From assembly GCF_014695395.1 (NCBI RefSeq), contig NZ_JACJOF010000024.1, forward strand, positions 1-64,000: 64,000 nucleotides of DNA, given 5' to 3'. Positions 6,359 to 26,318 of the stretch are shown here, piece after piece; positions within the stretch are counted from its first letter, which is position 1; each line of letters begins with the position of its first letter. The DNA comes from Nodosilinea sp. FACHB-131 (lineage in GTDB: Bacteria > Cyanobacteriota > Cyanobacteriia > Phormidesmidales > Phormidesmidaceae). The notes under the pieces were generated by a model. It was not told where the DNA came from and did no database searches. It saw nothing but the letters and a program-made list of their open reading frames with translations. Both the position numbers and the translations under genes were made by a program.

Positions 6359-8329
6359 TCAGGAATTAGGGGCATAGTTGAGGTGATAGTGGCCTAGGGC
6401 CATCAGCGGAAAATGGTGGCGGTAAAGGTGATAGCGAATATAGAAATGGCGGGGAAAGCCGGTGCCGGTAAACTCCTGCTCGTCCCACGTGCCCTCAGGG
6501 GTCTGAGTTTGAATCAAGTAGCGAATGCCCTTGTGAATGGCCGACTTGGCGGCGGCACTAGAACTATCGGCGTCGATTAACCCTAGCAGCGCCCAGGCCG
6601 TTTGAGAGGGCGTGCTCGGCCCCTGGCCCTTGAGAGCGGGGTCATCGTAGCTGCGGCAGGTTTCGCCCCAGCCGCCGTCGGGGTTTTGGCAGCTGACGAG
6701 CCAGTTAACCCCGCGTGCGATTGCCCCTTGACAACGCTCTGGCGCAATTAACGCTAGGGCCGATAGCGCCCCGCTGGTGCCGTAGAGGTAGTTGACACCC
6801 CAGCGGCCAAACCAGCTGCCGTCGGCCTCCTGTTCGTCGAGCAGAAAGGCTAGGCCTCGTTCGAGTCGCTGAGCGGTGAGGTCGCTGGCGTAACGGCTGG
6901 CAAGGTTGGGTTCACGGCAGAGGCGACCGTGCATCTCCAGCACTCGGGCGGTGATGTCGGCGGTGCTGGGATCGATCATGGCCTTGAGGTCGCCGTAGGG
7001 AACGGCGTTGATCCAATCCTGATCGTTGTTGATGTCGAAGGCGGCCCAGCCCCCGGTTTCGCACTGCATGGTGGCTACCCAGCGCACGGCGCGGGCGATC
7101 GCCTCTCGCTTCAGCGCCTCGTCGGGCAGGGTGACGTCTTGCAGAGCCATAGCGACCACCGCTGTGTCGTCCACATCGGGGTAGAAGCGGTTCTCAAACT
7201 CAAAGGCCCAGCCCCCCGGCTTGCCCTGGGGATTTTTCACCACCCAGTCGCCGTAGTCAAGAATTTGCTTGTCGAGCAGCCATTCGCCCGCCTGCACCAG
7301 GCTGGGGTGGTCGGGGGCGAGGCCCGAGTCGGTGAGCGATCGCATTCCCAAGGCCGTGTCCCACACGGGGGAGACGCAGGCCTGCACCCAGTAGGTGTCG
7401 TCAGTCTCCACAGCAAAGTTGTCGATCGCCTTCAATCCGCGCCGCACTACCGGGTCGTTTACGTCGTAGCCGAGGCAGCGCAGGGCCAGCATCGAGTTCA
7501 GCATGGCGGGAATAATGCCGCCCCAGTCACCGGTGGCTTCCTGCCGTTCTAGAATCCACTGCTCGGCTTTGCGAAGGCCCTCGTCGCGAAAGGGGGTGAA
7601 GTTGATGGATTCTGCAAACTTAAACGCGCCATCCAGCCAAACAAAAATATCGCTCCAATCGCCAGCTTTAGGCAGTTCCCAGCGCACGTTGGCGATGCCC
7701 TCAGCGTAGAGTTCGTCCAGGTTGACGGCGGGCTCAATGACGTAAACCGGCTTTTGGTCAAAGACAATCAGCAGCGGCACGGTGCTGCCCCGAGCCCAGC
7801 TGGAGAGTTCGTAGATGGTGAAGGGCGAGGGTGACTCTAGCAGCATCACCCAAGCGGGCAGAGAGGGCAGGCCACGCCAGTCGTAGCAGCCGATCAGCGC
7901 CAGGTGCAGCTTAGTGAAAATGCGGGTTTTGCTGATGCCGCCGCGCTTGAGAATAAAATCTTTTGCCTTTAGCAGGGCCGGATCGCTGGCGGGCACGCCC
8001 AGCACCCGCAGCGCTGTATAGGCCTCGACGGAGGTGCTGAGGTCGCCACCGTCGCCGTAGAACAGTTCCCACCCGCCGTGGTCGCGTTGGTGCGATCGCA
8101 AATAGTGCTCCGCCTTGGCCAGGGGGCGAGCACTGTCGGTGCCCCAAATCTTGTGCAGCAGAATGATTTCGGCGGTAATGGTGACGTTAGACTCTAGCTC
8201 GGCCCACCAGTAGCCGTCAGGGTGCTGTAGGGCCAGCAGGTAGTTTTGCGCAGCGGCGATTCCCTCAGGGATCGCGTCGCGAGTCGCCGAATCAAGCCCG
8301 GTTAGCTGCTGCGGTTCTTGCGTCTGCAT
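6359..8329 (-). CDS. shc: Squalene-hopene cyclase
   Basis: The protein of 656 residues matches the usual length of squalene-hopene cyclase, which folds squalene into hopene/hopanol at the membrane, the first committed step of hopanoid synthesis. The acid motif of the family (DxDD) is present as PDVDDTAV near residue 387. Repeated QW-type motifs are visible, such as DGYWWAEL, ATGDWGG, ETGGWAAF, ADGSWFGRW, PDGGWGE and PEGTWDE. The start is ATG 8329. The gene is transcribed away from hpnB and lies in a region with hpnG, hpnO and hpnH, which supports the hopanoid role. No oddity is seen. Confidence 0.97.
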   Translation of the reverse strand: MQTQEPQQLTGLDSATRDAIPEGIAAAQNYLLALQHPDGYWWAELESNVTITAEIILLHKIWGTDSARPLAKAEHYLRSHQRDHGGWELFYGDGGDLSTSVEAYTALRVLGVPASDPALLKAKDFILKRGGISKTRIFTKLHLALIGCYDWRGLPSLPAWVMLLESPSPFTIYELSSWARGSTVPLLIVFDQKPVYVIEPAVNLDELYAEGIANVRWELPKAGDWSDIFVWLDGAFKFAESINFTPFRDEGLRKAEQWILERQEATGDWGGIIPAMLNSMLALRCLGYDVNDPVVRRGLKAIDNFAVETDDTYWVQACVSPVWDTALGMRSLTDSGLAPDHPSLVQAGEWLLDKQILDYGDWVVKNPQGKPGGWAFEFENRFYPDVDDTAVVAMALQDVTLPDEALKREAIARAVRWVATMQCETGGWAAFDINNDQDWINAVPYGDLKAMIDPSTADITARVLEMHGRLCREPNLASRYASDLTAQRLERGLAFLLDEQEADGSWFGRWGVNYLYGTSGALSALALIAPERCQGAIARGVNWLVSCQNPDGGWGETCRSYDDPALKGQGPSTPSQTAWALLGLIDADSSSAAAKSAIHKGIRYLIQTQTPEGTWDEQEFTGTGFPRHFYIRYHLYRHHFPLMALGHYHLNYAPNS

Positions 8330-9121: not shown

Positions 9122-10297
9122 ATGGGAATGGCAATCTTAGCGTTGAGCTTGACGAGTCTGGCGCTCCTGATCTGGATTGGGATGCTGCTGTTCTGGGGGC
9201 AGTTTTGGCGCGCTGACCAGCGGCTTGATGGTGATCTGGTGCCACTGGCTGCTTGGCCCAAGATCGCGGTGGTGATTCCAGCCCGCAACGAGGCGGAGCT
9301 AATTGGGGTGGCGGTGCGATCGCACCTCAGCCAAACCTATCCCGGCAGCCTGCAAGTATTGCTGGTGGATGATCAGAGCACTGATGGCACGGCAGCGGTG
9401 GCGCAGGCAGCGGCGACTGCGGTAGACCAGTGCGATCGTCTCACGGTGCTCTCGGGCGCAGCCCTTCCCGCTGGCTGGGCTGGCAAGCTTTGGGCGATGG
9501 AGCAAGGGTTTCGCTACCTAGCGTCGCAGCCTACCCTACCCGACTACGTGCTCTTTACTGATGCCGACATTGAGCACGATGCTGCCAGCCTGCAACAGCT
9601 GGTGGCTAAGGCCGAGCGCGATCGGCTTGACTTGGTATCGCTGATGGTGCAGCTCCGCTGTGAAAGCTTTTGGGAACGGCTGCTGATTCCGGCGTTTATC
9701 TTCTTTTTTCAAATGCTCTACCCCTTCCCCTGGGTGAACAATCCTCAAAAACAGACGGCGGCAGCAGCGGGAGGTTGCGCTCTGATCCGCTTCAGCGCCC
9801 TTCAGCGCATCAACGGGCTTCAGTCCATTCGCCAGGCCCTGATTGACGACTGCGCGTTGGGAGCAGCGGTCAAGGCCAATGGCCCAATCTGGCTCGGCCT
9901 CAGCACCACCATCCACAGCCTGCGCCCCTACCCCGATCTGCACAGCATCTGGACGATGATCACCCGCAGCGCCTACACCCAGCTCAACTACTCACCGTGG
10001 CTGCTGATCGGTACGGTCTTTGGCATGCTGTTGGTCTATCCGGTCGCTCCCCTAGGGGTAGTTTTGGGAGTGATCTGGGGCGACCCTGCCCTGGCGCTGA
10101 CGGGGTTGGCGGGATGGCTGCTGATGGCTCTAGCCTATTGGCCAACGCTGAAGCTCTATGGCGGCCAGCGATCGCTGGCGCTGGCGCTGCCGTTGATTGC
10201 TCTGCTCTACACGCTGATGACGTTAGATTCGGCACGGCGGCACTGGGCGGGGCAGGGCGGGGCCTGGAAGGGACGGGTTTATAGCGATCTGGGGTAG
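9122..10297 (+). CDS. hpnB: Hopanoid-associated glycosyltransferase HpnB-like (GT2)
   Basis: This is a 391-residue membrane-anchored family 2 glycosyltransferase. An N-terminal hydrophobic helix (about 3-27) is followed by the GT-A domain, with VVIPARNEAELIG, LLVDDQSTDGT and the metal-binding segment FTDADIEHD. Hydrophobic segments lie near 190-205 and in the C-terminal third (about 295-375). Length and layout fit the HpnB family that accompanies hopanoid genes, and shc, hpnG, hpnO and hpnH are all near. HpnB's exact reaction is not settled in the literature known to me. A carotenoid-type or other polyprenoid glycosyltransferase is the main alternative. Confidence 0.8.
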   Translation: MGMAILALSLTSLALLIWIGMLLFWGQFWRADQRLDGDLVPLAAWPKIAVVIPARNEAELIGVAVRSHLSQTYPGSLQVLLVDDQSTDGTAAVAQAAATAVDQCDRLTVLSGAALPAGWAGKLWAMEQGFRYLASQPTLPDYVLFTDADIEHDAASLQQLVAKAERDRLDLVSLMVQLRCESFWERLLIPAFIFFFQMLYPFPWVNNPQKQTAAAAGGCALIRFSALQRINGLQSIRQALIDDCALGAAVKANGPIWLGLSTTIHSLRPYPDLHSIWTMITRSAYTQLNYSPWLLIGTVFGMLLVYPVAPLGVVLGVIWGDPALALTGLAGWLLMALAYWPTLKLYGGQRSLALALPLIALLYTLMTLDSARRHWAGQGGAWKGRVYSDLG

Positions 10298-11244: not shown

Positions 11245-11916
11245 TCACTGTTGAAATAGGAGCAGCGTGACCTGCTCCAGGGCTTTGAGCGCTTGGATTG
11301 AGCCGCTAATAAACTTTAGAGCCGCAATGGGGCGTTTCAAAAAGCTGCGGGCAAGAGTGTCAGCGCGAAGGCTACCGTCCGGGCCGATCGCACCCGAAAT
11401 ATCCGGCAAATCGTGGCTACAATCGTCGCTAATTACTCGTAGAACGGCGACTTTGGCCTGGGGCATGGCCTCCAGCAGTACGGCACTTTCCATATCGACT
11501 ACATCGGCCTGGTAGCGATCGCCCAGCTGCCGTTTTTCATTGACTGTGGTGATGACGCGATCGCACGTTACCCCCTTCCCCACTGGGGCACCAAGGTGTT
11601 GGGCTAGCTCATCGGTGAGGATGCGATCGCACTGATAGCCCTTCGAACTATCCCCCTCAGCAGCATCCCAAACCTGCTCAAGCAAAATGGCGTCGCCGAC
11701 CGAATGCTGGGGCGACAGGCTACCGCCCAGGCCCATCAGCAGAATCTCCTGGGTAGCGAAGCGAGAGTTGTCTTCCCAGCTTTCTAAAAAGGCCCGAAAC
11801 GCCACTGGTCCCGCCGGAACGGCAACCACCGGGGGTGCATGGGGAACCGCCTTCAGGCCCCGCATCACCGCCTGATATTCGGCCCCAGCGGGCACAAGAA
11901 TCACCTGAATTGGCAT
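11245..11916 (-). CDS. hpnG: Hopanoid-associated phosphorylase HpnG (adenosylhopane nucleosidase)
   Basis: This 223-residue member of the purine/uridine phosphorylase family contains VVDMESAVLL and the following VISDD segment that bind the nucleoside in this family. In hopanoid synthesis HpnG removes adenine from adenosylhopane, the product of HpnH, to give ribosylhopane. The start codon overlaps the stop of the upstream RND gene as TAATG (stop TAA at 11918-11916, ATG at 11916-11914), so the two are almost certainly co-translated. Another nucleoside phosphorylase (MTAN-like) would be the alternative, but the neighbourhood favours HpnG. Confidence 0.85.
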   Translation of the reverse strand: MPIQVILVPAGAEYQAVMRGLKAVPHAPPVVAVPAGPVAFRAFLESWEDNSRFATQEILLMGLGGSLSPQHSVGDAILLEQVWDAAEGDSSKGYQCDRILTDELAQHLGAPVGKGVTCDRVITTVNEKRQLGDRYQADVVDMESAVLLEAMPQAKVAVLRVISDDCSHDLPDISGAIGPDGSLRADTLARSFLKRPIAALKFISGSIQALKALEQVTLLLFQQ

Positions 11917-14693
11917 TAGGCTGACCGTTTAGTGAGCTTGAGCCAGCCATCTTCGAGCAGGGTGTAGAGCACCGGCACCACCACCAGACTCAGCAGGGTT
12001 GAGGTTAGCAGCCCGCCAATAATGGCTACGGCCATGGGCTGCCGCAGCTCGGCCCCCGCCCCAAAACCGAGGGCGATCGGCACCATACCCAACACCGACG
12101 AAACGGTGGTCATAAGAATGGGGCGCAGCCGCACCAAGCCCGTTTGTTTAATGGCGTCAGTGCGCTCAAGCCCGGCTCGGCGCAGTTGGTTGATGTAATC
12201 CAGCAGCAAAATCGCATTTTTGCTGAGCAATCCCAGCAAAAATAGCAGGCCCAACAGCGAGACAATGCCAAAGTCGCTGCGGGTGATCCACAGGGCCAGC
12301 GTTGCCCCAACTACCGAGAGCGGCAGTGACAAGCCCACCACCGCCGGTTCTAGCAACCGCCCAAAGGGCACTAACAGCACCAGCAGCATGCAGATCACGG
12401 CCAAAATTAGGATACGGCCAAAACTACCCAGTACTTCCCCAGCCCGGGCCGAGTCGCCCGCCAGGTCGATGCGCACACCGGGAGGCACCACCGATTCCGC
12501 AATTTCTACTACCTGGGCGGTAGCGTCGCCCAGGGCATTGCCGTCACTCAGGTTGGCGCTCACGATGGCGACCCGCTCCCCATTCTGACGGCTGATCTCT
12601 ACGATCGCATCGGCGGTGTTCTCGGCTCCCGAAATGCGCACATCGGCAAAACCGGGTAGCGCTTTCATCTGGGCCTGAATTTCAGCGGCGGCGGTTTGCA
12701 GCGCCGTCAGGTCTTCGCCCACTAGGGCCACCTGGAGGGGTTTTTCGCCGCCGGTATCGACAAACTGAAGGTCTTCAACGCTGGTTTCCAAGCCCGCCCG
12801 CGTGGGCAAATCCTGGCGGAGCTGAGCCTGCACGGCGGCGGTGTCGCGATCGCGCCCCTCCCGCAGCTGAATGTATAGACTGCCCTCGTTGGGGCGCCCC
12901 CGGCCGCCTACGGTAGTCAACACCGACTCGACTTCGGGCAGCTGAGCCACCGCCGCCTCCAGGTCATCAGCCTGCTGGAGGGTCCGTTGCAGGAGCTGCG
13001 ATCGCCCTGCTGCTGCTGCCGCCTCTGCTGCTGCCGCCGCCTGTGGTGCACTCAGACCCGTTGGTAGCTGTCCGGGCGGTGCTAGCTGAGCTCCACCGGG
13101 GCGCTGGGGCAGGGGCACCCGGTAGTTCAGCAAAAACTGCCCCTGGTCGAGCTGGGGAATAAACCCCTGGGGAATCAGCGGAATAATTGCAATGCCTGCG
13201 ACCAGGCTGGCGATCGCCAGCCCCACCACAATCCAGGGATGGCGCAGCGACCAGGCGAGCAAGTGGCTGTACTGCCGCTCTAGCCAGGTGCTCCTCCCCG
13301 TCTCCGCTAGGAGTGCGGCAACTGCGGGATTCGCGGGCTCGGGAACAGCGGGCTCAGGAACAGCGGGCTCAGGGGTAGCGGGGGCAGCGGCCTGGGGCGA
13401 GCCAGCGGCCTTGAGCCAATACACCGCCAGCACTGGGTTCAGGGTGCGCGCCACCAGCAGCGAGAACAGCACTGCCGCCGACACCGTCAGGCCAAAGGGT
13501 TTAAAGAACTGTCCTACGGTGCCGCCCATCAGCGCCACGGGCAAAAATACAGCCACGATGGTCAGCGTCGAGACCGTCACCGTCAGCGCAATTTCGTCTG
13601 TTGCCTGCAGAACTGCCTGTTGCGGAGTCGCCCCCGCTTCCAGGTGGCGCATGATGTTTTCGACCTCAACGATCGCATCGTCGACAATGATGCCAATCAC
13701 GATTGCCAGCGCCAGCAGCGTAATGGTCTCCAGGTTAAAGCCATAAATGGCCATCACGATCGCCGTGCCCAGCAGCGACAGCGGAATCGACAGCGCCGTA
13801 ATCACCGTGGCCCGCCAGCTGCGCAAAAAAGCCAAAATTACCAGCACCGCCAGCACGATCGCCTCCACCAGCGCATCGATGGTAGCCTCGGTCGACGCGC
13901 GAATGAATTCAACCTGGGTGGCGGCCAGGGCAATTTCTATCTGGGGCTGCTGCTCGCGGATCTCTGCGATCGCCGTCTCAACGCGATCGACCACCTCCAG
14001 GGTGTTGGCCTCGCCCTGCTTCACCACCTGCACCGCCAGTGCCGCTTCCCCGTTAAACCGAATTAGCGTTGGCGGGTTTTGTAGCTCTGCCAAAAAACTG
14101 CCCTCACCGCTGGCGGCGGCTCGGCTGCCAGTGCCGCGCAGGTCTACCCGCAGCACCCCAGGAATATCGCGCAGCGTCGGCAAGATTTCACCTTCAACCA
14201 GTGCCGCCAGCTCAGCCGGGGGCAGCTCTTCACTGGTCAGGGCATAACTAATCGCTGTCGCCTCGTTCAAGTTGAGCGGAATAATCTCATAGTCAAACCC
14301 GGCCGCCAGATCAGTCTGGTCAATGGCCTGCTCGACTGCAGCGGTGGTCTCCTCCAGCGCGGCGTTCACCTCAAAATTTAGCCGCAGAATCGCCCGCCCC
14401 GGCGAGGTGGTTGAGTCGAGGCGAGACAACCCGGCCAACGGTTGCAGCTGGGCCTCCAATGGCACGGTGAGCTCGGCTTCTGTCTCAGCTGCCGTCTCAA
14501 TGGGGGCAGTAGCGTTGACGAGCACCACCGGAAAGGTGATGTCGGGAAACAAGGCATACTTCAGAGAGCTAAACGCAAACAGCCCAGCCACCCCAATCAC
14601 AATCCAGCAGAAGAGCGTCAGCCCCTTGTTGCGCAGGGCAAATCGAGAGAGATTTAATCGTTCTCGCAGCTGGTTGAGGTTGAGGCGGGGCAT
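11916..14693 (-). CDS. RND efflux permease (AcrB/HAE1-like), coupled to hpnG
   Basis: This inner-membrane, proton-driven transporter of 925 residues starts at ATG 14693, with a GTG one codon earlier. It has the usual layout: TM1 (GLTLFCWIVIGVAGLFAF), a first periplasmic domain, TM helices with an acidic pair in the 4th (IVIGIIVDDAIVEVENIM), a second periplasmic domain and the final TM bundle with LLGLLFLLGLLSKNAILLLD. It is shorter than typical AcrB (about 1,030-1,080), and both loops carry Ala/Pro-rich low-complexity inserts. No membrane-fusion or outer-membrane partner gene adjoins it. Coupling to hpnG by a one-base overlap suggests, but does not prove, a role in hopanoid transport similar to that of HpnN. 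Confidence 0.9.
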   Translation of the reverse strand: MPRLNLNQLRERLNLSRFALRNKGLTLFCWIVIGVAGLFAFSSLKYALFPDITFPVVLVNATAPIETAAETEAELTVPLEAQLQPLAGLSRLDSTTSPGRAILRLNFEVNAALEETTAAVEQAIDQTDLAAGFDYEIIPLNLNEATAISYALTSEELPPAELAALVEGEILPTLRDIPGVLRVDLRGTGSRAAASGEGSFLAELQNPPTLIRFNGEAALAVQVVKQGEANTLEVVDRVETAIAEIREQQPQIEIALAATQVEFIRASTEATIDALVEAIVLAVLVILAFLRSWRATVITALSIPLSLLGTAIVMAIYGFNLETITLLALAIVIGIIVDDAIVEVENIMRHLEAGATPQQAVLQATDEIALTVTVSTLTIVAVFLPVALMGGTVGQFFKPFGLTVSAAVLFSLLVARTLNPVLAVYWLKAAGSPQAAAPATPEPAVPEPAVPEPANPAVAALLAETGRSTWLERQYSHLLAWSLRHPWIVVGLAIASLVAGIAIIPLIPQGFIPQLDQGQFLLNYRVPLPQRPGGAQLAPPGQLPTGLSAPQAAAAAEAAAAAGRSQLLQRTLQQADDLEAAVAQLPEVESVLTTVGGRGRPNEGSLYIQLREGRDRDTAAVQAQLRQDLPTRAGLETSVEDLQFVDTGGEKPLQVALVGEDLTALQTAAAEIQAQMKALPGFADVRISGAENTADAIVEISRQNGERVAIVSANLSDGNALGDATAQVVEIAESVVPPGVRIDLAGDSARAGEVLGSFGRILILAVICMLLVLLVPFGRLLEPAVVGLSLPLSVVGATLALWITRSDFGIVSLLGLLFLLGLLSKNAILLLDYINQLRRAGLERTDAIKQTGLVRLRPILMTTVSSVLGMVPIALGFGAGAELRQPMAVAIIGGLLTSTLLSLVVVPVLYTLLEDGWLKLTKRSA
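13334..13378 (-). repeat. 15-bp in-frame tandem repeat in the RND gene
   Basis: About three copies of a 15-bp unit (GGGCTCAGGAACAGC on the plus strand, with small changes) lie in the cytoplasmic linker of the RND transporter and encode repeated P-E-P-A-V. A second low-complexity Ala-rich stretch (AAAAEAAAAAG) is coded near 13010-13050. Such arrays can vary in copy number without breaking the frame. Confidence 0.75.
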
Positions 14694-14831
14694 CACTTTA
14701 GATCGGAGAGAAACGCAGATATCATAGCTTGTTCAACCGGTTGATCAGCCCGGGCTTGGGCCTGTCGCCCGCAGCGCCGATCGCCATCCAGGCTCCCAAA
14801 CTTTGGGTGCACCACCATTTGCGAGACTGCC

Positions 14832-16490
14832 ATGAGCTTAGTTTTATTTCTCTTGCAAACCTCTGGGCCAGCCCTGGGAATTGCCCTGGTCACCGGCCTG
14901 GTGAGCGGCGGCTGTAGTGCGGCGCTGATTGCGCTGATCAGCTACACCATCGCCCAGGGGGTGACCGGGGGGGGGGTAGCGGCGGCGTTTGTGGGATTGG
15001 GCGCGATCGCCCTGACCACAGCGATGGTGTCGCGCATTTTGCTGGTGCGGTTTTCCCAGGCGGCGGTGGTGGAGCTTCAGCTCCAGCTCTGTCGCCAGAT
15101 TTTAGCGGCGGAGCTGAAGTCTTTAGAGAGCCTCGGATTGCCCAGCCTGCTGGTGCTGCTAACGGAGGATATTCAGGCGATCGCCGCTGCCGCTGGGGTT
15201 TTGCCCGTTTTGATGATCAATATCGCGGGTACTATCGGCTGCATGGTCTACGTGTCATGGCTGTCGTGGCAGGTGCTGGCCCTGGTGCTGCTGATTACCC
15301 TGGTGGCTTCGTTTAGCTGCCGCTGGTTTTTGGTGGCGGGGCGGCGCGGTCTAGCCGCTGCCCGCGACCACCAGGAGCGGCTGTTTCAGCATTTCCGCAG
15401 TCTGATTGAGGGTATTAAGGAGCTGAAATTGCACTACCTGGGCCGCCAGGACTTCTTTGCGATCGACCTCCGACCCACGGCGCTTCAGGTCAAGCGCTAC
15501 AACCAGCAGGGGTTGAGCTTGTTTGCTGTGCTCGACAGCTGGGGCAAGTTCATCTACTTCTTTGCGGTGGGGCTGGTGCTGTTTGCCCTGCCCAATTGGG
15601 TGGGCATTAGCCCCAACACGCGCATCGCCTACGTGCTGACGTTTACCTATCTGCTGGGGCCGATGGAAAACCTGGTGAACAAGCTGCCGCTGCTGGGCCA
15701 GGCCAGCGTGGCCCTCGATAAGCTCAAGACCCTGGGCCTGAGTATTGATGCCGCGATCGCTGCCGCTACCGTGCCACCTATCGATCCAGACTGGCAGCGG
15801 TTAGAACTCAAGGGCGTGACCCACAGCTATCGCACCGATCAAGAGGGCACCGAATTTACCCTGGGGCCGGTGAATCTAACTGTGCACCCCGGTGAACTAA
15901 TTTTCATTATTGGCGGCAACGGCAGCGGTAAATCGACCTTGGCGAAAGTGCTCACTGGCCTTTACCGCCCGCAAGCGGGGACGATTTGGCTCGATCAGCA
16001 GCCCATTGATGAGCAGAATCAGGAGTGGTACCGGCAACATTTCTCAGCAGTGTTTGCCGATTTTTACCTATTTGATCGGCTGCTGGGGCTGAGTGGCGAG
16101 GCCGACGATAGCAAAGCCCAAGACTATCTAAAAAAGCTACAGCTCAGCCACAAGGTGAGCATCGACCAGGGCCGATTTTCGACGGTGAATCTATCTCAGG
16201 GGCAGCGCAAACGCCTGGCTCTGCTCAGCGCTTATATGGAAAACCGGCCTATTTATCTATTTGATGAGTGGGCTGCCGATCAAGATCCAGCTTTTAAGCA
16301 GGTGTTTTATACCCAGTTTCTGCCCGACCTTAAGGCCCAGGGGAAGACGGTTTTCGTGATCAGCCACGACGACCACTATTTTTATGTGGGCGATCGCATC
16401 CTCAAGCTCAACTACGGTCAGATCGAGTTCGAGCAGAGCCCCACATCTGCAAAGCTAGGCGTTATTCAGTCAGGCGGTATGACAGAGTAA
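14832..16490 (+). CDS. Cyclic-peptide-type (SyrD/PvdE-like) ABC exporter
   Basis: This 552-residue fused ABC transporter has an N-terminal membrane domain of about six helices (1-300) and a C-terminal ATPase. Walker A is GGNGSGKST near residue 360, the signature is LSQGQRKR near 455, and Walker B is IYLFDEWAADQDP. The glutamate-to-tryptophan spacing (DEWAADQDP) is characteristic of the SyrD/PvdE subfamily, which moves cyclic peptides or siderophore precursors to the periplasm. No peptide synthetase gene is nearby. It diverges from the RND-hpnG pair with 138 bp between the starts. The substrate is unknown; a hopanoid link is possible only by position. Confidence 0.9.
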   Translation: MSLVLFLLQTSGPALGIALVTGLVSGGCSAALIALISYTIAQGVTGGGVAAAFVGLGAIALTTAMVSRILLVRFSQAAVVELQLQLCRQILAAELKSLESLGLPSLLVLLTEDIQAIAAAAGVLPVLMINIAGTIGCMVYVSWLSWQVLALVLLITLVASFSCRWFLVAGRRGLAAARDHQERLFQHFRSLIEGIKELKLHYLGRQDFFAIDLRPTALQVKRYNQQGLSLFAVLDSWGKFIYFFAVGLVLFALPNWVGISPNTRIAYVLTFTYLLGPMENLVNKLPLLGQASVALDKLKTLGLSIDAAIAAATVPPIDPDWQRLELKGVTHSYRTDQEGTEFTLGPVNLTVHPGELIFIIGGNGSGKSTLAKVLTGLYRPQAGTIWLDQQPIDEQNQEWYRQHFSAVFADFYLFDRLLGLSGEADDSKAQDYLKKLQLSHKVSIDQGRFSTVNLSQGQRKRLALLSAYMENRPIYLFDEWAADQDPAFKQVFYTQFLPDLKAQGKTVFVISHDDHYFYVGDRILKLNYGQIEFEQSPTSAKLGVIQSGGMTE

Positions 16491-17503: not shown

Positions 17504-18592
17504 TTAAACCGTCTCTAGACTATAGCCCCACTGTTGAATGTAAGAATTCCAGGCATTCTCGATCGCACTAACCTTTTCAGGCTCTAGAGAATACTGGTTT
17601 TGCTGGTAGTCGTCTAGACCCGCCAAATAGGTTTCAAAATAGGGGCGCGCCGCCTCAAAATCGGGCAGCTCTAGCTGCTCAAACAGGCGCTTTAGCACCG
17701 GCAGTGGCTCGCTCTGCAAATCCTCAAAGCGCACCTCGGCAAATTGCTCTGGGGGCAGATCGGCCATATCGGTTTTCAGCGCTTCTAACAGAAACGGGTA
17801 GCTCTCTAACACCAGCGATTCAATCGGTAGCTCGCCGTAGTCTTGTAGGGCCAATTCGGGCAGCAGCCTCGTAAAATAGTGCCGCGCCGAGGGAAACACC
17901 CGGTAGGGGTTGCGGTAGATGTGAATGAACTTGGCCCCCGGCCACAACTCCCGCAGATGGCGAATGTAGCCCGTATAGACCGGATTTTTAATCAGCAGCG
18001 GCCGGTGCCCCTGGTGCACCGAGACCTTTCGCAGCAGCAGGCGATGTAGGCGTTTCCACCGCTCCACATCAGCGGGCGCACCGCCAAACACTTCCCGCCG
18101 AAAATGCGCCTCAAACTGCCGAGGAAAATACATGCCGTGGTAGTACGACTCCGCCCCCATCGTCGCCAGGGGAATGGAATCTTCCTGGGGCGAGGTGGGT
18201 GTGACCGCCACATTGTCGACGTAGCGATCTTGGGGCAGAGCCTGCTCTAGTAAGGGTTCCAGCGATCGCACAATACCCAAAATATCCCACGGCATCCCTG
18301 TTGCCAGCGGAGTGATATAGCCAAATGCTGGGCCCTGTGCCATGACATTGTGCAGGTGGGTAGTGCCCGATCGCCAGTAGCCGACAATAAAAACAGGGTC
18401 GGGCATCGGCTGCTTTTGGGCCAGGGCAAACGCCACCTGTTCTACGGTCGAAAAGGGCCAGCGGGCCAGTGACACCGCTAGGGCTAGAGCCACCTGGGGG
18501 CAGCGGTTAGCAGCAGGAAATCCATTTTCGAGCAGCAGCCTAAGCAGGGTGGGTGGGTTGCTGCCGCACAGCGGATGAAACAGGCTGGCCAT
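17504..18592 (-). CDS. PAPS-dependent sulfotransferase, third gene of the hpnO operon
   Basis: The protein has 362 residues from ATG 18592. An in-frame extension upstream to 18958 exists but overlaps hpnO, so I reject it. The PAPS 5'-phosphosulfate loop is clear as VFIVGYWRSGTTHLHN, and the 3'-phosphate site as FIHIYRNPYRVFPSARHYF. The enzyme would transfer sulfate from PAPS to a hydroxyl or amine of an unknown acceptor. The start lies 8 bp after the hpnO stop, and hpnO lies 37 bp after the synthase gene, so the three form one operon. That suggests a hopanoid or other terpenoid acceptor, but this is inference. Confidence 0.9.
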   Translation of the reverse strand: MASLFHPLCGSNPPTLLRLLLENGFPAANRCPQVALALAVSLARWPFSTVEQVAFALAQKQPMPDPVFIVGYWRSGTTHLHNVMAQGPAFGYITPLATGMPWDILGIVRSLEPLLEQALPQDRYVDNVAVTPTSPQEDSIPLATMGAESYYHGMYFPRQFEAHFRREVFGGAPADVERWKRLHRLLLRKVSVHQGHRPLLIKNPVYTGYIRHLRELWPGAKFIHIYRNPYRVFPSARHYFTRLLPELALQDYGELPIESLVLESYPFLLEALKTDMADLPPEQFAEVRFEDLQSEPLPVLKRLFEQLELPDFEAARPYFETYLAGLDDYQQNQYSLEPEKVSAIENAWNSYIQQWGYSLETV

Positions 18593-18600
18593 GGCTGGGG

Positions 18601-19989
18601 CTATCGGGCTCCGGCTTTGGTTTTCATCGCCTGGGTGGCCAGGGTTTTGCCAAATTCCCAGGCGGCACCCGGCACCCGGTGGGCGTCGGCCACTACATCG
18701 GTAACGGCCTCGACAATCCAGCGGCGATCGCTCTCCTGCAGGGTCAAAGGCGGAATAAACTTGACCACATTCATGCCATAGCCCGCCACCTGCGACAAAA
18801 CTCGGTGGCGGGTAAACAGCGGCACCGTAATGATCTGAGAAAACAGGCCCCGGTTGGCGGTTTCGAGCATCTTCCACGACATTTTTAGGGTCAGGCTCTT
18901 GGGTTCGCCAAACTCCAGCGCCATCATCATGCCCAAGCCCCGCACTGCTTTCAGGCACTCGTACTGGCCCACCAAAGGCTGCAAATCGGCCACAATCTGC
19001 CGCCCCATCTGGGCCGCATGGTCAATCCAGCCCTCGGTTTCGAGCACCTCTAGGGTGGCTAGACCAGCGGCCATGGCCAGGTTATTTTTGCCAAAGGTGC
19101 TGCCGTGGACCACGGCGCGATCCATGCGGTTGAACACTTTGTCGAAGATCCACGACCGACAGGCCACGGCCCCCACCGGCACAAACCCGCCTGAGAGGGC
19201 TTTGGCCATGCAGAGCAGATCGGGCTCGACGCCAAAGTGCTCGACGGCCCACCATTTGCCCGTGCGGCCCAACCCGGTCTGCACCTCGTCGGCAATGAAC
19301 AGGCTGCCGTATTTGCGGCAGAGCGCCGCCGCCCCCGCTAGGTAACTAGCCTCCGGAATCCACACGCCGTGGCCCTGGATGGGCTCGGTGATAAAGGCAG
19401 CCACGTCCTTGCGAGACAGGGCCTTTTCCAGAGCGGCCAAATCCCCAAACGGCACTTCGATAAAGTCGGGCAGAAAGGGGCCGAAACCCTCACGAAAATG
19501 CGGATCCCCGGTGGCAGATAAGGATCCTAGAGTGAGGCCGTGATAACCCCCTTCGCAGTAGACAATCTTGCTGCGTCCGGTAGCGTGGCGGCTAAACTTA
19601 ATCGCCGCCTCAACGCTTTCGGTGCCGGAGTTGGCGAAGAAGATGCGGTCTAGTCCCGGCGGTGTGATCTGCTGAAGCTTTTCGGCCAAGAGCCCCGACA
19701 AAACCGACACATCCAGCTGCACTAGGTTGGGCAGTTCGGCGCTCAGCACATCCTGCAACGCTTGGACGACTTTGGGATGGTTGCGCCCCAGGGCAAAGAC
19801 GCCAAACCCGCTGAGCAGGTCGAGGTAGCGATCGCCCTGGTCGTCAAACAAATAAGGCCCCTCCGCGCGCACGTAGTGGCGATCGAACCCGATCGTTTTG
19901 AGTACGTTGACCATCTGCGGGTTGAGGTACTGCGCGTGCAGCGAGAAATTGTCTCGCTGCCGCTCGGCGATGCGATCGAGAATGTTCAT
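18601..19989 (-). CDS. hpnO: Class III aminotransferase, probable ribosylhopane aminotransferase HpnO
   Basis: This PLP enzyme of 462 residues has the class III layout: FFANSGTESVEAAIKFSR for phosphate binding, ADEVQTGLGRTG with the cofactor aspartate, and the Schiff-base lysine in MAKALSGGFVPVGA. HpnO converts the ribosyl head group of hopanoids to aminobacteriohopanetriol. The identification leans on length and on the neighbours hpnH, hpnG and shc. An acetylornithine- or other omega-aminotransferase is the alternative. It sits between the synthase-family gene and the sulfotransferase, with gaps of 37 and 8 bp. Confidence 0.83.
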   Translation of the reverse strand: MNILDRIAERQRDNFSLHAQYLNPQMVNVLKTIGFDRHYVRAEGPYLFDDQGDRYLDLLSGFGVFALGRNHPKVVQALQDVLSAELPNLVQLDVSVLSGLLAEKLQQITPPGLDRIFFANSGTESVEAAIKFSRHATGRSKIVYCEGGYHGLTLGSLSATGDPHFREGFGPFLPDFIEVPFGDLAALEKALSRKDVAAFITEPIQGHGVWIPEASYLAGAAALCRKYGSLFIADEVQTGLGRTGKWWAVEHFGVEPDLLCMAKALSGGFVPVGAVACRSWIFDKVFNRMDRAVVHGSTFGKNNLAMAAGLATLEVLETEGWIDHAAQMGRQIVADLQPLVGQYECLKAVRGLGMMMALEFGEPKSLTLKMSWKMLETANRGLFSQIITVPLFTRHRVLSQVAGYGMNVVKFIPPLTLQESDRRWIVEAVTDVVADAHRVPGAAWEFGKTLATQAMKTKAGAR

Positions 19990-20026
19990 GCACTAGCGGG
20001 GTAAAGGGGGGCGGTATGCGGTCTAA

Positions 20027-20872
20027 CTAGACTTTAGTCATAAGTTCGACCGATTTGCCAACGCCGAGCAGCGGCGTTACGATCGCCATCACATCGGCCC
20101 GGCTGAGCTTTTCTCGGCCCTGGGCCAGGGCATCGATTGTGGCCGTAGCCAGGGCGAGGGGAATGCGGCAAAACAGCAGGGCTGGCCCCTTGGGCAGGGC
20201 TTGAGTGTAGGCATCGGCCATCTTGAGGTTGCGGCGAGCGTAGTGCTGCATGTCATCCGCCGTCCAGCCATCCGGGAAAAAGTCAACGCCGCGATCTTTG
20301 TCCTCCAAGTGGTTGCGCAAAATATTCACCGATTGCAGGCCGCGCCCAAAGCCAATTGCCTCCATTCGGCTGGTTTCGGTGCCGTCGTACCAGGCCCAGA
20401 GGTCAGACAGCATCAGCCCCACGGCCCCGGCCACGCTAAAGGTGTAGCGATCGAGATCGGCTTCGGTTTTGATCCGCCAGTTTTGCTCGGCCCAGTAGGC
20501 CATGCGATCGGCCATCGCGGCAGTGGCGTCCCAGATCCGGGGGGCGATCGTGTCGGGGGCCAGCAAGGCCCACTCGCCGATGCGCAGGGTCACCTCTTCG
20601 AGCTGTTCGCCATGACCTTCTAGCCCAGTCGCAAAATCAGCCACCGCTGAGGATTCTGTGCCCGCTTGCAAGTTGAGGCTAATTTGGCGCAGCAGCCTGA
20701 TCTTGGTGCTGCCGTCTAGGGTCGGATGGTCTTCAATCTGGTCGATCGCCCGCATGCACAGGTACGCAGATGCCACCGCTTCCTGAAGCCCAGGAGGGAG
20801 TAAGCTGATCGGAATAAAGAATGTTCGGCTGGTCTCCTTCAGCAGGTCCAACGCAGATTTAATCGACGGCAT
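20027..20872 (-). CDS. Squalene/phytoene-synthase family protein (HpnC/D-like)
   Basis: This 281-residue, all-helical isoprenoid synthase-fold protein is the first gene of the operon with hpnO and the sulfotransferase. The first aspartate motif is intact (RAIDQIEDHP). The second, usually NI-R-D-xx-E-D, reads NILRNHLEDKDRG, so its first aspartate is asparagine. The family condenses two prenyl diphosphates head to head; squalene for the cyclase would be the expected product. At 281 residues it is shorter than a membrane-anchored squalene synthase and closer to HpnC/HpnD or phytoene synthase. With the altered motif the exact reaction is open. Confidence 0.85.
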   Translation of the reverse strand: MPSIKSALDLLKETSRTFFIPISLLPPGLQEAVASAYLCMRAIDQIEDHPTLDGSTKIRLLRQISLNLQAGTESSAVADFATGLEGHGEQLEEVTLRIGEWALLAPDTIAPRIWDATAAMADRMAYWAEQNWRIKTEADLDRYTFSVAGAVGLMLSDLWAWYDGTETSRMEAIGFGRGLQSVNILRNHLEDKDRGVDFFPDGWTADDMQHYARRNLKMADAYTQALPKGPALLFCRIPLALATATIDALAQGREKLSRADVMAIVTPLLGVGKSVELMTKV

Positions 20873-21270: not shown

Positions 21271-22281
21271 ATGGCAATCAGTTTGCAGCAGGCCCTAGGC
21301 GTGGGGCAATATCTTGTCACCCAGCGCCTCAAAGGGCGCAAGCAATATCCTCTGGTGTTGATGCTAGAACCGCTGTTTCGCTGCAACTTGGCCTGCTCGG
21401 GCTGCGGCAAAATCCAGCACCCCAAAGAAATTTTGAAGCAGAACCTGTCTCCCGAAGACTGCTTTGCGGCGGCGGAAGAATGCGGTGCCCCGGTGGTTTC
21501 GATTCCCGGTGGGGAGCCGCTGCTGCACCCTCAAATTGACGAGATTGTGCAGGGCCTGGTAGCGCGCAAAAAGTTTGTCTACCTCTGCACCAACGGCCTG
21601 CTGCTCGAAAAAAGTCTCGACAAATTCACGCCCTCGCCCTACCTCTCATTCAGCGTGCACCTCGACGGCATGAAGGATCTGCACGATCGCTGCGTCGATC
21701 GCAATGGCGTCTTCGATATTGCCATCAGCGCCATCCGGGCCGCCAAAGCGCGGGGCTTCCGCGTCACCACCAACACCACCGTGTTTGAGGGCACTGATCC
21801 CCAGGAAATCCAGTCTCTGTTTGACTATCTCACCGAGCTGAAAGTAGACGGCATGATGGTGTCGCCGGGCTACAGCTATGATTGGGCCCCCAACCAGGAG
21901 CACTTCCTCAAGCGCGACCAGACCAAGGCGCTGTTTCGAGAAATCCTGGCTCCGTTTACGGCGGGCAAAAAAAAGTGGGAATTTAACCACAACCCGCTCT
22001 TTTTAGATTTCTTGACGGGGCAAAAAGACTACGACTGCACCCCCTGGGGCAGCCCCAGCTACAGCGTGCTAGGTTGGCAAAAACCCTGCTACTTGCTAAA
22101 CGAAGGCCATTACGAAACCTTTCAGGAGCTCCTCGACAATACCGACTGGGAGAAGTACGGCCACAAGAGCGGCAACCCTGAATGCGCCGACTGCATGGTG
22201 CACTGCGGCTACGAGCCGACGGCGGCAGAGGCGGCCATGCAGCCGCAGAATATGCTGCGCGCTATGGGTAGCCTGTTCTAG
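21271..22281 (+). CDS. hpnH: Adenosyl-hopene transferase HpnH (radical SAM)
   Basis: This 336-residue radical SAM enzyme couples 5'-deoxyadenosine to diploptene, giving adenosylhopane, the first step in side-chain elongation of hopanoids. The cluster motif is CNLACSGC (Cys38, 42, 45). It is followed by the SAM-binding segment [12 protein letters not shown], and the C-terminus has a conserved Cys-rich stretch ([15 protein letters not shown]). The length matches HpnH. The start is set by GAGGAG before ATG 21271. It is divergent from the synthase-hpnO-sulfotransferase operon. Confidence 0.95.
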
Positions 22282-24035: not shown

Positions 24036-26318
24036 CTAAACCTGAACTCGATCGCACTCATGCAGATACTGGGCGATCGCCCGATCCAGATTTGGCAGCA
24101 AAATCCCACGTTCGCTGCTGAGCACACTATAGGCGGGGCGAGATGCCGCATAGCCAAAGCTGTCGATGGAGCAGGATTGAATGGCGGAGGCATCTAGTCC
24201 GGCGAGCTGCGCTGTTTGACGAGCGAGGTCAACCCAGGCGATCGCCCCTGGATTGGCTAGGTGCCAGATACCATGCTCTCCATCAATCAGCAAGTCAAGG
24301 CTGGCATTCACCAGATCGGGAACATAGGTGGGGGACACGATCGCATCCTCCGCCGCTAAAAAGGGCTGTCCTGCCTTCAGGGTGCGGAGGGCAATCGTCA
24401 GGAAGTTGTAATCGTCCCAGGGGCCAAAGAAAGCACTGGTGCGAATGACTAATGAATCGGGATGGTGGTGTAGCACCTGCCGTTCTGCCTGGGCCTTGCT
24501 GTGGCCATAGACGTTCAGCGGCGCGACGGGATCGCTCTCCAGGTAGGGCTGTTGGCGATCGCCATCAAACACCAGATCCGAGGAAAAAGTGATCAGCCCA
24601 ATATGCCGCTGCGCACAACTCTCCGCCAAAATAGCGGCCCCATCGGTATTAATGCTGCGGCACAGGTGAGACTCCCGCTCTGCATCATCGACGCGCACAT
24701 AGCCCGCCGCATTGATCACAGCCCACGGCTGCATCTCCGTCAGCACCTGCTCAACCATGGCTGGATTGGTAACATCCATATCCTGTCGACTCAGCAGGCG
24801 GTAGGGAATGCCCCGTACGTCACAGATGCGAGCAAAGGCTTGACCGAGCGTGCCGGTCGCTCCGGTGATCAGGAGGGGGGAGGGGGTGATGGGTGGATGG
24901 GTAGATGGGTGGGTGAGTGGATGGGTGGATGGAAAATTAGCAGAATCTTCTGAGGTGTGGGTATGGAAACAGGAAATAGGGGGATAGAGAAGCCGATCGC
25001 TCCGCTGCCACCAGCCGGGAACTTCCAGGAGGGGGTGATTGTAGGGCTCGCCGTGGGAGAGGTGGCGGAGCATGGTGGCGATCGCTGTGGGGCGGGGTGA
25101 GGGCGATTGCAGCGTGCTGTTGCATGGGGGGCGCACGTCAAAGACACCCGGCTCGTAAAAGCACTCGTCGCGGGTAACGAGGCTGTTCCAGTCGTAGGCA
25201 CCAAGAAGCGACCAGGCGGTGACGGCCCGCAGGTCTACCCCCTCCTGACGCAGGTGCTGAGCGGCATCCCAAATCTCCTTCAGCCAGCGCAGTTGTTCCT
25301 CCCGAGTGCAGCCCAGGTGAACTTCGGTGATGGCGATGGGCTGGTGGTAGCGATCCCACACTTCTTTCAGCAAAACATTGGGGGGACAAATGCCTTCCTC
25401 GCAAACCCGCACCGCTTCCACGTCAGCATATTGGTGCTTGCCGTTGCCGCCGTGGGTGTGGGGCGGGTAGCGATCGAGGCGTTCATCGAGGAAGCGATCG
25501 CTGGTCAAATAGCGATTAATGCCAAAAATGTCGGGCGGGCAGGGATGATCGAGAAACCAGTCTAAGTCCGATTCCTCAGCTCCGCTCTGCCGCAGATAGT
25601 TCCATAGTTCATGGCTACGATCCACCCGACCGCAGAGTAGATCAAAGGATAGCCATCGCCGCTCATTTTCAAAGGCAATTTGATAGCTCAACAGCGGCGT
25701 GCCAAACGTCTTGCCCAGATCTTCGGTCTGCACCAGTTTTGCCGCCGGGTTGATGCGACGAATGGCCTCCATGGACAGGGCAACCCCACGGCACTGATTG
25801 ATCAAAGCTCGAATAAAGCTCTGATCGTCCTGGGCATGGGGATACCAGTGGCCATACAGCCCGCTAAAGCGGGCGGTGGTCAGGGGTTCGTTGACTGGGG
25901 TGTAATATTCCAGCCAGGGGTAGCGGGTGGCAACGGCCTGGGCAAACTGAGCCAGGCCGTTGGCAAACTCCGGGTCTAACAAGCTGGTGTGAGGCGGGCC
26001 GCTGCCGTGGTGTACCAGGCCAACAATGGGACGAATCCCGATATCGTCCAGGTACGCTAACCGTTGGTCTGCCCAACTCCAATCGGCTAGCTCCGGGCCA
26101 TTGGGCGCAGTGCGCTCCCAGAGGACAGGATAGCGGATGGCTTCAATGCCTAAGGTGGCAAAGCAATCGAGGTCTTCTATGCGGCTATAGTGACCGTTGC
26201 GCTGAAGCTGATCGAAGTAGCGATCGCCCACCCGGTTCACGGTACATTCAACACCACCCCAAAGTTCTAGCTTGGGTGAAACTTGGTCTACACTCATCAC
26301 ACGCTTACTATTGCTCAA
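24036..26318 (-). CDS. GH1-like glycosidase fused to dTDP-4-dehydrorhamnose reductase (RmlD)-like domain
   Basis: The product is a 760-residue two-domain protein. Residues about 10-420 form a family 1 glycoside hydrolase-like barrel that keeps the acid/base motif (TPVNEPLTT) and a nucleophile motif (IAITEVHLG). Residues about 480-755 are an RmlD/SDR sugar-nucleotide reductase with LLITGATGTLGQ, FSSDLVFDGD and the YGHSKAQAE catalytic Tyr-Lys. A Thr-His-Pro-rich linker joins them. The C-terminal half would act on a nucleotide sugar; the N-terminal role is unclear. The start overlaps the glf stop by 4 bp (26315-26318), so it is the last gene of the GT-glf operon, and a role in surface glycan synthesis is likely. 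Confidence 0.88.
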   Translation of the reverse strand: MSNSKRVMSVDQVSPKLELWGGVECTVNRVGDRYFDQLQRNGHYSRIEDLDCFATLGIEAIRYPVLWERTAPNGPELADWSWADQRLAYLDDIGIRPIVGLVHHGSGPPHTSLLDPEFANGLAQFAQAVATRYPWLEYYTPVNEPLTTARFSGLYGHWYPHAQDDQSFIRALINQCRGVALSMEAIRRINPAAKLVQTEDLGKTFGTPLLSYQIAFENERRWLSFDLLCGRVDRSHELWNYLRQSGAEESDLDWFLDHPCPPDIFGINRYLTSDRFLDERLDRYPPHTHGGNGKHQYADVEAVRVCEEGICPPNVLLKEVWDRYHQPIAITEVHLGCTREEQLRWLKEIWDAAQHLRQEGVDLRAVTAWSLLGAYDWNSLVTRDECFYEPGVFDVRPPCNSTLQSPSPRPTAIATMLRHLSHGEPYNHPLLEVPGWWQRSDRLLYPPISCFHTHTSEDSANFPSTHPLTHPSTHPPITPSPLLITGATGTLGQAFARICDVRGIPYRLLSRQDMDVTNPAMVEQVLTEMQPWAVINAAGYVRVDDAERESHLCRSINTDGAAILAESCAQRHIGLITFSSDLVFDGDRQQPYLESDPVAPLNVYGHSKAQAERQVLHHHPDSLVIRTSAFFGPWDDYNFLTIALRTLKAGQPFLAAEDAIVSPTYVPDLVNASLDLLIDGEHGIWHLANPGAIAWVDLARQTAQLAGLDASAIQSCSIDSFGYAASRPAYSVLSSERGILLPNLDRAIAQYLHECDRVQV
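24888..24932 (-). repeat. Minisatellite encoding the (S/L)-T-H-P linker
   Basis: GATGGGTG-type units with an imperfect 12-bp period encode STHP, LTHP, STHP on the minus strand, exactly in the linker between the GH1 and RmlD domains. The array is in frame and could change length without damaging either domain. Confidence 0.75.

Follow-up and report, generated by a model that had tools for sequence, protein, structure and literature searches.

A PAPS-type sulfotransferase associated with hopanoid biosynthesis genes in Nodosilinea and other bacteria: a predicted tailoring enzyme of the hopanoid side chain

Closest described systems and the Nodosilinea locus

Hopanoids are bacterial analogues of cholesterol. 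In the aminohopanoid branch of bacteriohopanepolyol (BHP) biosynthesis, HpnO converts ribosylhopane to aminobacteriohopanetriol, and in Alphaproteobacteria hpnO mostly lies outside the hpn cluster (PMC12583986, accessible part). A survey of alphaproteobacterial hpn clusters in the same source noted, in that part, no obvious further candidate genes nearby. The locus described here lies in a 64,000-nucleotide stretch of Nodosilinea sp. FACHB-131 (contig NZ_JACJOF010000024.1, positions 1 to 64,000; henceforth the window) and contains a sulfotransferase gene, SULT, directly downstream of an HpnO-type aminotransferase gene, AMT. Every SULT hit at E <= 1e-90 in the two phylum samples searched is next to HpnO or inside an hpn cluster, in nine of nine cyanobacterial genomes (including that of the window) and four of four Pseudomonadota genomes, rather than occurring mostly without hpn genes. 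This pattern suggests, with a probability of roughly 65%, that SULT is a hopanoid tailoring enzyme that O-sulfates the polyol side chain, and the gene was rated as a new branch of a known hopanoid pathway.

The locus resembles the HpnO branch of PMC12583986 in having an HpnO-type aminotransferase beside hpn genes, with squalene-hopene cyclase (SHC), HpnH and an HpnG-like gene also present. Unlike that branch, the window has a sulfotransferase after the aminotransferase, and nine of nine non-cyanobacterial HpnO genomes searched were without SULT. A Streptomyces plasmid cluster carries a 53% identical aminotransferase in an annotated run with hpnC, hpnD, hpnE, shc, hpnH, ispG and dxs, but no sulfotransferase is annotated in the 37 kb read, and HpnC/D/E take the place of a single squalene synthase-type enzyme. 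The bacteriohopanetetrol cyclitol ether branch (HpnI, HpnJ, HpnK) likewise decorates the C35 side chain; its head group, however, is glycosyl-derived rather than a sulfate, and the glycosyltransferase of the window is HpnB, not HpnI. The sulfotransferase domains of CurM and olefin synthase and mycobacterial STF1 and STF9 share with SULT the fold that uses 3'-phosphoadenosine-5'-phosphosulfate (PAPS), but are only 16–18% identical to it in structure alignments and have other substrates and gene contexts.

The relevant features of the window are as follows.

17504–18592, minus strand: SULT, PAPS-type sulfotransferase of the hopanoid-linked group, 362 aa
18601–19989, minus strand: AMT, putative HpnO-type class III aminotransferase, 462 aa (PF00202, 326 bits)
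20027–20872, minus strand: SQS, squalene synthase-like, 281 aa (PF00494, 93.9 bits)
21271–22281, plus strand: HpnH, adenosylhopane synthase, radical SAM (TIGR03470, 551.7 bits, cut-off 225)
6359–8329, minus strand: SHC (HpnF), squalene-hopene cyclase (TIGR01507, 928.5 bits, cut-off 431)
9122–10297, plus strand: HpnB, hopene-associated glycosyltransferase (TIGR03469, 562.1 bits, cut-off 379)
11245–11916, minus strand: HpnG-like phosphorylase (best match TIGR03468, 73 bits, under the cut-off of 187)
11916–14696, minus strand: RND-type gene (best models multidrug RND permeases, 528 against a cut-off of 1250)
14832–16490, plus strand: ABC exporter of the cyclic-peptide-export family (TIGR01194, 480.9 bits, cut-off 286)

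The original prediction described SULT, AMT and SQS as a unit with 8 and 37 bp spacing and a divergent hpnH, and this arrangement was borne out by the coordinates and profile matches. All three genes are on the minus strand, with gaps of 8 bp between AMT and SULT (18593–18600) and 37 bp between SQS and AMT (19990–20026), and the divergent hpnH starts 398 bp from the start of SQS. SHC, HpnB, the HpnG-like gene, HpnH, SQS, AMT and SULT form a hopanoid island that lies entirely inside 16 kb of the window; the presence of both SHC and HpnH is the combination by which a BHP pathway was recognized. The HpnG-like gene is 40% identical to that of a second cyanobacterial SULT cluster (genome G374, described below) and would supply ribosylhopane, the substrate of HpnO. 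It overlaps the same-strand RND gene by one base (11916); the latter may encode a transporter of another type than HpnN. A multidrug-type RND gene also adjoins SULT, on the opposite strand, in a Muproteobacteria locus. A promoter and terminator scan found one promoter-like site (1.0 expected) and six terminator-like sites (4.4 expected). Elsewhere in the window, a 760 aa frame at 24036–26318 has, judging by its translation, the look of a fusion between a glycoside hydrolase and an RmlD-like reductase.

The gene context of its relatives makes AMT a probable HpnO-type enzyme. A relative is encoded in 34 loci identified by scanning genome contigs. In Actinobacteria it is followed by HpnA in four loci (L093, L094, L097, L100) and fused to HpnA in a fifth, a Streptosporangiaceae metagenome-assembled genome (MAG) in which a single 875 aa frame (L092:9974–12601) comprises an HpnO-type aminotransferase and HpnA. 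The fusion hints that HpnA might act near the HpnO step. In a Pseudomonadota MAG (L089) the relative lies between HpnH and an SQS-like gene. No HpnO model was present among the best 25 of 69 NCBIfam matches to AMT, the top one being PigE (429 bits against a cut-off of 850). AMT is rare in cyanobacteria, being found in 8 of 386 sampled genomes (E <= 1e-110) versus 84 of 386 for HpnH (E <= 1e-80).

SQS gave TIGR01559 (squal_synth) as its best NCBIfam match, at 78.6 bits against a cut-off of 286.75, and scored 20.3 and 44.9 bits with the HpnC and HpnD models, both under cut-off; the gene is therefore named squalene synthase-like. Because the one other SQS_PSY gene in the genome is CrtB (566.7 bits, cut-off 550), SQS is the sole candidate squalene synthase of that family found. 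In two other genomes from the family of the window's genome (G170, G215), no SHC, SQS or HpnH was found at the limits used, so the pathway seems to be unevenly distributed among members of the family.

Recurrence of the sulfotransferase with hopanoid genes

SULT matches were found in 40 of 386 cyanobacterial genomes (E <= 0.001), nine of them at E <= 1e-90: the window's own genome, seven genomes of one genus, and G374. The AMT-SULT pair is present in eight of these nine. In the ninth, G374, SULT lies beside SQS, HpnH, HpnA, an HpnG-like gene, HpnB and SHC, and no AMT match was obtained genome-wide at E <= 1e-110. With the reservation that seven of the nine belong to one genus, SQS occurs in all nine versus 79 of 386 genomes overall, and HpnH in eight of nine versus 84 of 386. 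Of 34 weaker cyanobacterial SULT places (E weaker than 1e-90), 12 were examined (L046–L057), and no hpn neighbours were found at any of them. Eight of these places (L050–L057) are in small genomes of cyanobacterial family f20, which carry a distant SULT (28–32%) with no tested hpn genes within the 19 kb read.

Nine of 398 Pseudomonadota genomes matched SULT at E <= 1e-20, in 12 places, four of which reached E <= 1e-90. One of the four (G386) carries the AMT-SULT pair. The others have SULT with HpnA, B, C and D and with HpnH about 10 kb away on the same contig (G768), with HpnA, B and C/D-like genes and HpnH about 9 kb away on the same contig (G439), or with HpnA, G, L and H (G775). At seven of the eight weaker places, G506:C41 not among them, no hpn neighbours were found; in one genome with a weaker match (G494), HpnH is about 200 kb off. 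SULT was further identified at 45–46% identity on plasmids of Azospirillum brasilense, A. argentinense and Azospirillum sp. TSH58, with HpnA, SHC and HpnH near it in five of five loci read from seven listed plasmid records. In A. brasilense Sp7 it lies in an hpn cluster with HpnA, G, N, H and SHC, where HpnH, SHC and HpnN exceed their cut-offs. SULT is thus linked to hpn genes in five lineages or more, namely the HpnO-linked clade, G374, G768/G439, G775 and Azospirillum. Chance adjacency was considered and rejected, given a rough expectation of 0.5% per gene within 10 kb in a 4 Mb genome versus these five or more lineages.

The unit that is conserved is the AMT-SULT pair. Twenty-three of the 34 AMT loci are cyanobacterial, eight of them Microcystis near-copies, and SULT follows AMT directly in 22 of these 23 and in a Muproteobacteria MAG (L085), or 23 of 34 overall. 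In the single cyanobacterial exception (L075), SULT is on a separate contig. Among the 20 of 23 pairs with a measured gap, 17 are separated by 1–9 bp and three by about 40–52 bp, with starts and stops less sure in the latter. SQS, in comparison, directly precedes AMT in only 9 of 34 loci, all close relatives of the window, and lies 2.8 kb from AMT in L074. The full three-gene order, unlike the pair, is a local feature of the window's clade. A reading of the trio as an ancient operon was rejected, since Microcystis-type genomes have SQS at a different site and the remaining loci do not have it next to AMT.

The SULT and AMT trees agree in their main branches, although the finer order within the Nodosilinea-type group is resolved differently. 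In both, the Muproteobacteria MAG falls outside, and L084, Pleurocapsales/Xenococcaceae and Microcystis are separated from the Nodosilinea-type group that includes the window. AMT and SULT of the pair have a shared history.

Candidate genes for membrane passage recur next to the pair. An HpnL-like gene comes right after SULT in nine loci (Pleurocapsales, Xenococcaceae and Microcystis), and HpnL was the best model for both HpnL-like genes scanned, at 156.6 and 160.7 bits against a cut-off of 195.65. An ABC exporter lies near AMT-SULT in 10 of the 23 SULT-bearing AMT loci, namely nine that group with the window in the tree, plus L084, in which it is co-directional and immediately follows SULT. 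Such exporters were observed beside SULT genes at L084:3657–4875, L076:8092–9756, L048:7288–8928 and 14832–16490 of the window. The SULT of L048 is outside the hopanoid group, yet an ABC exporter adjoins it, and TIGR01194 matches the exporters of both L048 and the window.

The original prediction left open whether the head group would be sulfated or sulfamated. Its placement of SULT in hopanoid head-group synthesis is well supported on comparative grounds by the consistent hpn or HpnO linkage of the strong hits, while the sulfamate variant lost ground to the SULT genes in hpn clusters without HpnO nearby. N-sulfation by SULT of the amine formed by HpnO, yielding a hopanoid sulfamate, would fit AMT and SULT being the tightest and best-conserved pair, with agreement in the main tree branches. 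It is nevertheless unlikely in view of those clusters, of G374 with no AMT match at the limit given above, and of C30-carotenoid-linked members with no aminotransferase in the annotated stretches read. Since SULT is also found in hpn clusters that lack a nearby HpnO, the acceptor that most simply fits all cases would be a C35-polyol hydroxyl and not the amine.

The sulfotransferase protein and its wider family

SULT matched PF13469 at 110.5 bits (1.8e-31; cut-off 27) and PF00685 at 31.9 bits (cut-off 22). The GTG at 18958 given as its start in the list of open reading frames was discarded as spurious in favour of the ATG at 18592, with which the conserved MASLFHPLCGSN start begins; in an alignment of 20 rows, at least 90% have M1. 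The ratio of nonsynonymous to synonymous substitution rates (dN/dS) was 0.10–0.12 in five of five comparisons, indicating purifying selection, and 0.03–0.06 for AMT. The 5'-phosphosulfate and 3'-phosphate binding motifs are conserved: all 11 rows compared share residues W73, R74, S75, G76, T77, T78, H79 and L80, together with R227, P229 and S235.

A Foldseek search with the SULT structure model returned sulfotransferases for 21 of 21 matches at E <= 0.001, with query-normalized TM (template modelling) scores of 0.3–0.6. The model has a mean confidence (pLDDT) of 67, and residues 95–171 are too weak for the acceptor pocket to be read from it. Among the solved proteins closest to SULT in sequence and fold are the sulfotransferase domains of CurM and the olefin synthase, in which a sulfate activates a hydroxyl for elimination or displacement. 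By analogy, SULT could install a transient sulfate on the way to a sulfur-free end product, which would also agree with the lack of a sulfated hopanoid in the literature searched. This mechanism is improbable, as the recurrent neighbours of SULT are hpn genes, HpnL-like genes and the ABC exporter; no thioesterase or lyase was noticed among the neighbours, not every one of which was searched.

Relatives of 37–40% identity were found on plasmids of A. oryzae, A. lipoferum, A. ramasamyi and Palleronia, where SULT follows genes for two crtI-type desaturases, one acyltransferase and one glycosyltransferase in the arrangement of staphyloxanthin-like C30-carotenoid clusters. In L135, L136, L138 and L139, SULT ends carotenoid clusters that also hold an aldehyde dehydrogenase. 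The arrangement in Azospirillum and Palleronia suggests a sulfated staphyloxanthin-like carotenoid; no paper on a diapocarotenoid sulfotransferase was found in the literature searched.

In a tree of 44 SULT rows, the 15 HpnO-linked rows form one group (support 100/99), and these together with 8 other hpn-linked and 4 C30-carotenoid-linked rows (27 of 44) form one side of a branch supported at 99/95. Support is weak for separating the other hpn-linked rows (74/52) from those linked to carotenoid genes, and several of the outside rows are long-branched. The remaining 17 rows come from other contexts; one of them (L137) adjoins annotated polyketide synthases, and no hpn cluster was found around the 17 within the 7–19 kb read. 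The tree omits a set of loci that are mostly near-copies (L039, L041, L043, L051, L053, L055, L057, L058, L073, L078–L082, L086, L090, L091, L095, L099, L101 and L133) and phylum-sample hits whose surroundings were not fetched. The 27 rows appear to represent a family of C30-terpenoid sulfotransferases whose core is hopanoid-linked, with the HpnO-linked group nested inside it.

These carotenoid-linked relatives raise the alternative that SULT has some other lipid as its substrate, perhaps a glycolipid or a C30 carotenoid, and resides in hopanoid loci only incidentally. The separation of AMT-SULT from SQS, SHC and HpnH in Microcystis points the same way. Set against this are the hpn linkage in at least five lineages and the fact that strong hits of both phylum samples are all hpn- or HpnO-linked, so that action on an unrelated lipid is judged a poor explanation.

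Predicted pathway and its significance

In the pathway favoured here, in which SULT O-sulfates the hopanoid side chain, SQS would form squalene, SHC would cyclize it to diploptene, and HpnH would produce adenosylhopane. The HpnG-like enzyme would then yield ribosylhopane, and AMT, as an HpnO-type enzyme, 35-aminobacteriohopanetriol. With PAPS as donor, SULT would place SO3 on one of the hydroxyls in the C35 polyol side chain. In genomes with HpnO, the product would be a sulfate-bearing and possibly zwitterionic aminohopanoid; without HpnO, SULT would sulfate bacteriohopanetetrol or a related polyol. Membrane passage of the product may be provided by the adjoining ABC exporter or, in Microcystis and relatives, by the HpnL-like protein. 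The analysis establishes the gene anatomy, the family assignments, the linkage in several lineages and the common history of AMT and SULT; which acceptor is used, where the sulfate is attached, how the steps are ordered and how the product is transported are inferred.

Several observations weigh against this pathway. A sulfated hopanoid is a prediction for every member, and the C30-carotenoid clusters show that the SULT group extends beyond hopanoids. One strong-SULT cyanobacterial genome (G097) is without HpnH above cut-off, and the Muproteobacteria MAG has SHC, yet no HpnH above cut-off. AMT-SULT is remote from SQS, SHC and HpnH in the two Microcystis-type genomes whose chromosomes are complete. 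HpnG-like genes score under the cut-off of 187 in the window (73), G374 (53.5), G775 (149) and Sp7 (181), and HpnA of G768, G775, G439 and Sp7 scores 262–328 against a cut-off of 368. SULT was absent (E <= 1e-5) from the nine non-cyanobacterial HpnO genomes searched, all of them MAGs of unstated completeness, a tenth locus (L098) whose AMT is only 28% identical not being among them; it is consequently no part of the standard aminohopanoid pathway.

The A. brasilense Sp7 record also bears on the pathway. This strain was among those of the alphaproteobacterial survey and is reported to have given no Rohmer products, with only adenosylhopane detected (PMC12583986). Another Sp7 record has both SULT and an HpnG-type gene among its clustered hpn genes, so an end product was perhaps missed. 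Low flux past adenosylhopane is a simpler explanation of this result, and one sulfate would leave some of the vicinal diols needed by the Rohmer method.

No link between a sulfotransferase and hopanoids was found in the literature searched, which lacks most subscription papers, and nothing relevant came up there on sulfur-bearing BHPs, on sulfate esters or on hopanoids with a sulfate or sulfonate group. Four papers (PMC8776678, PMC12858407, PMC7356697, PMC5472815) mention sulfotransferases and hopanoids, in separate contexts as far as their accessible parts show.

A more tentative and far-reaching proposal is that HpnO and SULT jointly produce a membrane lipid of a new class, an amino-sulfate BHP that is zwitterionic and has dedicated transport by the ABC exporter or HpnL-like protein, and that SULT defines a C30-terpenoid sulfotransferase family common to hopanoid and staphyloxanthin-like carotenoid pathways in two phyla. 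Common hopanoid methods favour periodate-cleavable or positive-ion species, and an amino-sulfate hopanoid would for that reason have been missed.

Few bacterial molecular fossils are used as widely as hopanes, and the chemistry of their side chains helps to identify their producers. A strongly polar lipid may escape extraction or detection, which could explain some genomes that seem BHP-capable but appear to be BHP-negative. If the predicted role of SULT is correct, the known head groups would gain an anionic or zwitterionic one, and the sulfated hopanoid that bears it could serve as a marker of Microcystis, Nodosilinea-type and Azospirillum-type bacteria.

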